Assembly: GCA_012519655.1 (NCBI GenBank) | Contig: JAAYPS010000020.1 | Location: 1-58,694 of the forward strand | DNA length: 58,694 nt | Origin: Clostridiaceae bacterium | GTDB taxonomy: Bacteria; Bacillota; Clostridia; DSM-8532 | Reading direction: 5' to 3' | Part shown: in pieces, positions 20,455-23,209 of the stretch | Numbering within the stretch: position 1 is the first letter of the stretch | Layout: the number at the start of each line of letters is the position of its first letter | Position numbers and translations under genes: made by a program | Notes under the pieces: model-generated | The model's input: the letters and a program-made list of their open reading frames with translations, nothing else | Databases searched by the model: none | What the model was told of the DNA's origin: nothing

Positions 20455-20580
20455 AACACAGGGGACACAGGGGGACGGTTCTTTTGTGCTATTTGACACA
20501 GGGGGACGGTTCTTTTGTGCTATTTTCCCTGTATCATTAAGAACACAGAGGGACGGTTCTTTTGTGTTATTCTCCCTGTA
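20455..20580. repeat. REP-like repeat array, left cluster (three copies)
   Basis: Three near-identical copies of a 26-27-base element with core GGGACGGTTCTTTTGTG: 20464-20489, 20495-20520 and 20542-20568, with a partial at 20455-20463. Each full copy is bounded by a short inverted repeat of the ACACA/TGTGT type. Copies two and three also share the following TCCCTGTAT-ATTA tail, making units of about 47 bases. Two spelling variants occur, CAGGGGGACGG and CAGAGGGACGG. The same element appears in the opposite orientation at 22793-23209. Such elements resemble REP sequences spread by REP-associated tyrosine transposases; no such gene is in this window. Confidence 0.85.
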
Positions 20581-22044: not shown

Positions 22045-22773
22045 ATGAAAAAAGGACTAAATGGCTTTGAACTAAAAATTATCGCAATTTCTTTGATGTT
22101 TGTTGATCATGTGGGCGCGATATTGTTTCCAACAGTTATGATTTTTAGAGTAGTGGGGCGCCTTGCTTTTCCTATTTTCGCATTTTTTATATCAGAAGGT
22201 TTTTTCCATACCCGCTCGATTAAGAAGTATTTGATTAGATTAGGCATATGCGCAATAGCATTCCAGATACCTGATTGGTTTTCAAGAATTTATTCTATAG
22301 TTACCGATACGCCGGGTTTTGGAGTCAGTTATTCGCTTAACATATTTTCAACTCTATTTCTTGGCTTATGTGCAATCGTTTTATTTGATATGTTGAAAAC
22401 AAAAAGTGTATGGCTGGCTTTCCTGTCTACACTGGTAATTGCAGCGATGGCTGAGGTCATAAATGCTGATTATGGAGCATATGGGGTGTTTTACATTTTT
22501 CTTTTTTACCTTACAAAGGGAAATATCCACAATATGATACTAGGTGGAATCCTTTTACACGGATTTTATGGTTTGTATGAAATGAGCACTTCATTTATCA
22601 GTACAGGAACTGCGATATTTACCCATTCAATTCAAATTTACTCACTTGGTGCTCTGCCCATAATAGCTTTATATAATAATGAAAGAGGGCGAAAGGCGAA
22701 ATATTTTTTCTACATATTTTATCCAGCGCATTTGATTATACTTTATGCCATTGATTGGATCTTAAGGGGATAA
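22045..22773 (+). CDS. TraX family membrane protein
   Basis: A 242-residue protein with about seven hydrophobic segments, matching the TraX family named after the F-plasmid pilin N-acetylase. Family features are GLNGFELKIIAISLMFVDH at the start (with the early Asp-His), GRLAFPIFAFFISEGFFHT, and FYPAHLIILYAIDW at the C-terminus. In chromosomal Firmicutes genomes these proteins occur without conjugation genes and are probably membrane acyltransferases of unknown substrate; none of the usual transfer genes is here. The ATG has GAGG seven bases upstream. The 3' end runs directly into a REP-like array, and its last codons are copied again downstream. Confidence 0.85.
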   Translation: MKKGLNGFELKIIAISLMFVDHVGAILFPTVMIFRVVGRLAFPIFAFFISEGFFHTRSIKKYLIRLGICAIAFQIPDWFSRIYSIVTDTPGFGVSYSLNIFSTLFLGLCAIVLFDMLKTKSVWLAFLSTLVIAAMAEVINADYGAYGVFYIFLFYLTKGNIHNMILGGILLHGFYGLYEMSTSFISTGTAIFTHSIQIYSLGALPIIALYNNERGRKAKYFFYIFYPAHLIILYAIDWILRG

Positions 22774-22792: not shown

Positions 22793-23209
22793 AACACAAA
22801 AGAACCGTCCCTCTGTGTTCCTCTGTGTTGGGAAAAGTGCACAAAAGAACCGTCCCCCTGTGTTGTCCCCTTATGTTGTCTTGTGCAGTCGCCCTTGTGC
22901 AAGATTCAATACCATTATATAATAACGATAGAGAACATATGGTTATGGTGAAGTGCTTTTTCTCTATGTTTTATCCAGTACATTTGGTTGTGTTTAATGC
23001 CATTGATTGGATCTTAAGGGGGTAAGGTGGTTAGTGGTGTGCAGAACACAAAAGAACCGTCCCTCTGTGTTGGGAGAACTGCACAAAAGAACCGTCCCCC
23101 TGTGTTCATATTAAGGGCATAAGGTGGATACCGGTGCAAAGAACACAAAAGAACCGTCCCTCTGTGTTACCTCTGTGTTATCTGTGTTCAAGAACCGTCC
23201 CCCTGTGTT
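22793..23209. repeat. REP-like repeat array, right cluster, in three traX-tail units
   Basis: Six copies, opposite in orientation to the left cluster, with core CACAAAAGAACCGTCCC: 22793-22819, 22839-22864, 23045-23071, 23081-23106, 23142-23168 and 23188-23209 (the last is 5'-truncated). They alternate strictly between the CCCTCTG and CCCCCTG spelling, so they come as three pairs. The first two pairs are each preceded by the traX tail and TAAGGTGGTTAGTGGTGTG, and the third by a shorter degenerate version. The unit (tail plus pair) has been copied, with period 252 bases and then 97. The last copy lies about 10 bases before the SD of the next gene. Confidence 0.88.
22911..23025 (+). pseudogene. 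Partial second copy of the traX 3' end
   Basis: The frame encodes LYNNDRE and later FYPVHLVVFNAIDWILRG, which matches the end of the neighbouring TraX (LYNNERG and FYPAHLIILYAIDWILRG). Only about 38 codons of homology exist, and the upstream part of the ORF is translated repeat sequence. The last 60-70 bases, including the stop and the following spacer and repeat, are almost identical to those after traX, while the codons further 5' have diverged strongly. It is a gene fragment carried within the repeat unit, from a local duplication or from a lost paralogue. Confidence 0.75.

Follow-up and report, generated by a model that had tools for sequence, protein, structure and literature searches.

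Introduction

The closest described systems are the TIRtrons, whose transposases (TIRYT; Di Nocera 2013, PMC3733652) correspond to TnpA-Y1 subclass 2.1 and to group 1 of the REP-associated tyrosine transposases (RAYTs) (Quentin 2018, PMC6006769). These are HuH/Tyr transposases of about 240–250 aa with a helix-turn-helix-like C-terminal tail, encoded between inverted repeats with a GGGG-W-S motif (published consensus GGGGWSAS, PMC3733652), and the genome copies of the repeats occur as dimers and clusters. According to Quentin et al., genes of subclass 2.1 have no REP-like sequences nearby (PMC6006769). For GTAG REPs, REPtrons and BIMEs, Nunvar et al. (2010, PMC2817692) describe many short palindromes with one RAYT between inverted copies, arranged as tandem modules and head-to-head pairs. 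They propose that replication is primed from 3' ends made by RAYT cleavage beside REPs and that BIMEs arise by a rolling circle. REPINs are inverted repeat pairs that act as small mobile units (Bertels and Rainey 2011, PMC3116915), and CGTC repeats have an unpaired terminal CGTC and flank no transposase gene. Head-to-tail dimers are absent or rare in the GTAG and CGTC families (PMC3733652). How RAYTs spread REPs was called unsolved in a 2021 study of TnpA-REP (PMC8266576).

Here we describe a repeat block in a 58,694-nt stretch of DNA from a Clostridiaceae bacterium (contig JAAYPS010000020.1 of assembly GCA_012519655.1; this whole stretch is called the window below), together with the genome-wide family to which it belongs. 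A previous sequence-only reading had called the repeats REP-like, and had proposed a genome search for the core, a search for a REP-associated tyrosine transposase and a comparison of the locus in related strains.

Results

A block of paired repeats lies 3' of traX

The block (22793–23209) is located between two + strand genes. Upstream is an intact traX-family gene (22045..22773, 242 aa; Pfam TraX PF05857, E=1.2e-33), from which the copied tail derives, and downstream is a Bmp-family gene (PF02608; 23229..25187); the block falls between the stop codon of the former and the ribosome site of the latter. Against the F-type pilin acetylase model, the traX-family protein scored 22 bits, far under the 149-bit cut-off. 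Within this block, six copies of a 27-bp repeat, AACACAAAAGAACCGTCCC(T/C)CTGTGTT, form three pairs, each with a T form followed by a C form, which agrees with the sequence-only reading; all six GAACCGTCCC cores were located on the + strand (22802, 22847, 23054, 23089, 23151 and 23192), with CCCTCTG and CCCCCTG alternating three times. A 17-mer searched with up to 3 mismatches gave 8 matches in the window, against 0.09 expected by chance per window. Given this count and the change-point test on the traX tail described below, chance similarity was rejected as the source of the block.

All elements of the block are on the + strand. Copy 1 (T form, AACACAAAAGAACCGTCCCTCTGTGTT, 22793..22819) is followed by a 10-bp echo, CCTCTGTGTT, at 22820–22829, and copy 2 (C form, 22838..22864) by degenerate outer-arm echoes at about 22865–22900. 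Next comes B2 (22909..23025), a decayed copy of the traX 3' end with 39 codons including its own stop, which was recognized by tblastn (61% over 36 aa) and by codon comparison, followed by copy 3 (T form, 23045..23071) and copy 4 (C form, 23080..23106). B3 (23108..23141), a short remnant derived from the traX end and its spacer and about 34 bp long, begins 1 nt past the outer edge of copy 4, and together with copy 5 (T form, 23142..23168) makes a 61-nt block with 87% identity to the traX end, spacer and repeat. Copy 5 is followed by the echoes ACCTCTGTGTT and ATCTGTGTT, and copy 6 (C form, 23183..23209) has a degenerate or lost inner arm. Two of the three pairs therefore follow a copy of the traX 3' end, as had been claimed, the second following B2 and the third the shorter remnant B3. 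A second cluster in the window (20455..20568, − strand) contains three direct repeat copies with an outer echo, AACACAGGGG, and the spacer of one of its pairs reproduces the inner host flank at 16/20 bases.

Three congeners have the ortholog of the Bmp-family gene immediately after traX, with neither repeats nor a tail copy in between; the simplest reading is therefore that this lineage gained the block. The traX tail was rejected as a constituent of the repeat because it is absent from every other examined copy.

The repeats form a genome-wide family with one transposase gene

The core AAGAACCGTCCC has 130 matches in the 2.63-Mb genome (a fragmented assembly of 198 contigs), and the reversed-pattern control had 0; the unit is thus not confined to the window, and the refuting outcome named by the sequence-only reading, a unit absent elsewhere in the genome with similarity due to chance, does not hold. 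Among the fetched copies, the spellings were CCCTCT (76), CCCCTT (26), CCCCCT (21) and CCCTTT (2). On the GGGGAC strand, the variable positions, as read from the sequence, are purines opposite T residues in the partner arm. All spellings thus retain A-T or G-T pairing, and do so on this strand only; such a pattern, judged from the letters, fits the strand-specific recognition of TnpA-REP (PMC8266576). The C/T alternation at traX is no special signal; it follows from the duplication of one T-C pair, with pairing kept. Single repeats fold weakly as DNA (z about -1.2 to -2.6), and the evidence for the hairpin is therefore the covariation seen among relatives, not energy. A literature search with the core sequence returned nothing relevant. 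Among neighbouring copies less than 400 bp apart, 42 pairs are direct, 23 head-to-head (four of them spaced 32 bp) and 0 tail-to-tail; the corresponding numbers for neighbours less than 300 bp apart in relatives are 41, 22 and 1.

The genome has one Y1 transposase gene (L010:2720-3478, − strand, 252 aa), flanked by two inverted, outward-facing repeat copies at L010:2702(-) and 3533(+). The encoded protein possesses the HuH motif NHIH and the tyrosine motif YIHQNP, both conserved in 7 aligned relatives, and matches PF01797 (47–49 bits) and the TnpA-REP structure 4er8 (E=5e-4). Its score against the NCBIfam model NF047646 (REP-associated tyrosine transposase) was 72.4 bits, below the cut-off of 80, so this model alone would not admit the gene. 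The C-terminal tail is conserved (RQIxRxTGxS) and helix-turn-helix-like in appearance, and no HTH family matched it in the profile search. The flanking motif in this genome, GGGGACGG, is one position off GGGGWSAS, and several relatives match exactly (GGGGACAG). Judged by motif and by length (252 aa, TIRYTs being about 238 aa long and extended at the C-terminus by a helix-turn-helix), the protein very probably belongs with RAYT group 1, TnpA-Y1 subclass 2.1 or TIRYT. An IS200/IS605 insertion sequence was also considered and rejected, as these occur in several near-identical copies with a Y---Q motif, whereas a single gene with a Y---NP motif is present here.

Most related RAYT genes are flanked by hairpins with covarying arms

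We fetched 80 related RAYT genes, nearly all from Bacillota, of which 77 had enough flank for a motif test. GGGAC[AG]G was present within 150 bp upstream in 61/77 and inverted downstream in 58/77, with both in 49; wrong-orientation controls gave 2 upstream and 13 downstream. The arms vary by species (AAACCA/TGGTT, GGGACAA/TTGTCCC, GAGACTCA/TGAGTC), and own arms are complementary over 5.1 nt versus 3.97 nt for swapped arms (maximum of 1000 shuffles, 4.29). This covariation is evidence that the folded strand is the recognised form. Genomes with a full-length RAYT relative have a median of 7 cores versus 1 in those without (p=0.0015), a comparison made conservative by the arm-specific search pattern. 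Against the RAYT model counts one relative, estimated to be 99% complete (G015), that has 26 core copies and no RAYT match; the enzyme may have been lost there, or a different enzyme may be acting.

Close RAYT relatives were also found in MAGs labelled Desulfaltia, Acetothermia and Atribacteria (L118, L125, L173, L188), reflecting either cross-phylum transfer or mis-binned contigs. Another locus, L197 (G023:C10:165-264), carries a small head-to-tail array in which a 22-bp unit (arms AAACCAT...) is present five times.

Given that the GGGAC[AG]G hairpin flanks most of the 77 related RAYT genes with covarying arms, repeat and enzyme together make up a RAYT-linked REP/TIR family, a kind already known, and this identity is almost certain. 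The earlier label "REP-like" thus holds in the broad sense (130 cores, and one cognate RAYT between inverted copies, with intergenic position judged from the window clusters), but the type is GGGGAC/TIR and not GTAG: the consensus AACACARRGGGACGGTTCTTTTGTGTT has no GT[AG]G tetranucleotide at the hairpin foot. Nor are these CGTC repeats, as CCGTCCC lies inside the repeat and a RAYT gene is found between two of the copies. The family shares with the TIRYT systems the transposase type, the position of the gene between inverted repeats, and the dimers and clusters. It differs from them in its motif (GGGGACGG or GGGGACAG, the published consensus being GGGGWSAS), in the predominance of head-to-tail doublets, in the outer echoes and host-flank copying described below, and in having, across Bacillota, a hairpin with covarying arms where no REP-like sequences had been reported. 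With the GTAG REPs and BIMEs of Nunvar et al. it has in common the many short palindromes, the single RAYT between inverted copies, the tandem modules and the head-to-head pairs, but its arms are AT-rich and its pairs mostly direct (42/65), none being tail-to-tail. The 23 head-to-head pairs resemble REPINs, from which the family is set apart by its group-1 transposase and its surplus of direct doublets.

Tandem copies are fixed at the outer edge and vary at the inner end

Tandem copies share a common outer edge (...TGTGTT) and differ at the inner end. For 65 tandem copies in this genome, the interquartile range of the outer edge was -9 to -8 from GGGAC (about 1 base), whereas the positions of the inner end ran from -2 to +36, and relatives agree with this. 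The products fall into 7–19 bp echoes, 31-bp doublets, units of 34–50 bp with host flank, and the units of about 97 and 252 bp at traX. An outer echo (an extra TGTGTT within 25 bp) accompanies 44/71 copies versus 3/54 for an inner-arm echo (p=1e-11), and a mirrored test gave 40 outer versus 4 inner of 107 here and 40 versus 4 of 197 in relatives. Echoes also occur in relatives with other arms, in 70/260 copies versus 2.6 expected using swapped arms. Furthermore, the spelling of the echo was that of the adjacent parent in 35/37 informative cases.

Copying of host sequence was assessed in the 20 irregular direct pairs of this genome, whose spacing is other than 31 bp. The spacer matched the inner-side host flank of the first copy with a score of 4.6 (null 1.09), but outer-flank copying was not above chance in these 20 pairs (1.35 versus 1.18). 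The inner-flank score was at least 6 in 7/20 pairs, the traX block not being among the seven, with 16/18 bases copied in L043 and 14/15 in L036, and inner-flank copying was also seen in relatives (L168, L172, L178, L181, L209). The earlier suggestion that the repeat unit has carried host sequence is therefore supported, and the behaviour is general. Taken as patterns in sequence, the edges, echoes and flanks indicate that the repeats very probably multiply locally by polarised, one-sided copying.

The traX tail copies differ along their length

The genuine traX 3' end with its repeat, to 22819 (B1), was compared base by base with the corresponding segment of B2 (22909–23071). The first 27 codons contain 22 differences and the last 10 codons contain 2, whereas the following 45 nt have none; the best change point, 22745, was equalled in 0/5000 shuffles (p below 0.0002), which bears out the description of a tail, stop codon and spacer that are nearly identical below codons that differ. 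The last 75 bp of B1 and B2, before and within the repeat, are nearly identical. Such a mosaic, in which a decayed tail is joined to a near-identical repeat-proximal 75 nt, needs a second, later process, either exchange or a repair patch. The repeat-centred recombination or gene conversion that the sequence-only reading had proposed is supported only for this extra similarity near the repeat, and leaves the polarity of copying unexplained.

Among the changed codons of the B2 tail, 14/17 are nonsynonymous and 3 synonymous, and conserved residues are lost, so B2 is unlikely to be a functional alternative allele. Diversity-generating mutagenesis of B2 seems unlikely, as by eye the changes show no adenine bias. 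Since congener TraX proteins are merely 60–64% identical, polarising the B1/B2 changes with the congeners gave no clear direction. With its units of about 252 and 97 bp and the same outer edge, the traX block reads as the long end of the copying series.

Discussion

The best overall explanation, to which we give a probability of about 0.5, is that the repeats are the REP/TIR of one group-1 RAYT and that they are copied in tandem, on one side, by nick-primed synthesis. HuH enzymes hold a tyrosine-bound 5' end and leave a free 3' end able to prime synthesis or reseal (PMC8266576). In the proposed reaction, the HuH/Tyr enzyme would bind the folded GGGGAC strand and nick it at the outer edge, on the 5' side of the outer arm (AACACA). 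The free 3' end would then prime displacement synthesis inward across the hairpin over a variable length, and the tyrosine-held 5' end would be rejoined with the new 3' end. The resulting tandem copy would be fixed at its outer edge and variable at its inner end. The length of the run would set the product: a short run would leave an echo, one through the hairpin a 31-bp doublet, and a longer one would include neighbouring host sequence, in this block the traX tail. B1 and B2 would afterwards have been homogenised over the repeat-proximal 75 nt by exchange or patch repair. The available text of the Nunvar et al. (2010) priming model (PMC2817692) does not contain a variable-length copying footprint from a fixed edge.

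The sequences show the family, its link to the RAYT, the covarying arms, the polarity with its fixed outer edge, the local templating seen in the spellings, and congeners that lack the insertion. Nicking, priming, religation and the part played by the enzyme are inferred from these, and copying primed by a RAYT nick is held only tentatively, at slightly worse than even odds; a shade more tentative is the general statement that group-1 RAYTs spread hairpins by an abortive rolling-circle-like reaction that also duplicates neighbouring gene ends. Several points count against the nick model. E. coli TnpA-REP cleaves at CT on both sides of the REP (PMC8266576), and the searched literature yielded no cleavage data for a group-1 RAYT. 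Copy junctions often have 0–6 extra bases, which simple nick-priming does not give, and the exact 31-bp doublets may be mobile units themselves rather than arise in situ. The second process needed for the last 75 nt of B1 and B2 and the fragmented state of the assembly also weigh against the model.

Slipped-strand replication or unequal crossing-over at the repeats could have duplicated flank and repeat with no transposase at all. Hairpins and direct repeats are known substrates for slippage, TGTT-like microhomology is present by eye at some junctions (L042, L043, L046), and the B1/B2 similarity gradient is consistent with exchange near the repeat; yet this explanation predicts neither an outer edge that stays constant while the inner end varies, nor the near-absence of inner echoes, nor a polarity shared by relatives whose arms are unrelated, so that we regard it as unlikely for the family, and allow that RAYT-free slippage may account for individual events. 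The fixed outer edge is what one-ended transposition would yield, if a RAYT moved a single-stranded repeat with variable flank into the outer edge of an existing repeat as a preferred target, and relatives of the IS200/IS605 group do insert beside a defined short target. Distant donors, however, would mix spellings, and the parent-matched echoes (35/37) and the local origin of the copied flank make such insertion somewhat less likely again than slippage. That 22793–23209 is a misjoined repeat in a short-read assembly is very improbable: many contigs of this genome do terminate in these repeats, and a repeat-bounded element of about 127 bp stands at six contig ends, but B1, B2 and B3 are separated by many substitutions and so are not collapsed duplicates, and many further contigs and genomes have the same architecture.

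Judged by the literature searched, the group-1 hairpin with covarying arms, the surplus of direct doublets and the footprint of one-sided copying that carries host sequence are new. Group-1 RAYTs, reported without REP-like neighbours, have hairpin repeats with coevolving arms in Bacillota. The footprint of a constant outer edge and a variable end, seen here and in relatives with unrelated arms, points to a specific, testable reaction in which the bond to be cut is named, and it supplies many natural product molecules against which that reaction can be checked. One-sided copying is a clue to how such repeats multiply, and if the nick-primed reading is true, a domesticated transposase would be a source of tandem duplications of host DNA.

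A separate feature of this genome is the element of about 127 bp, which is identical at the ends of six contigs (G000 C32, C38, C75, C95, C134 and C195; L037, L040, L048, L055, L066 and L082) and probably broke the assembly there. It consists of two repeats, with their inner sides facing, around an interior of about 70 bp, and looks like a miniature element bounded by family repeats; a diverged relative is present in C110.
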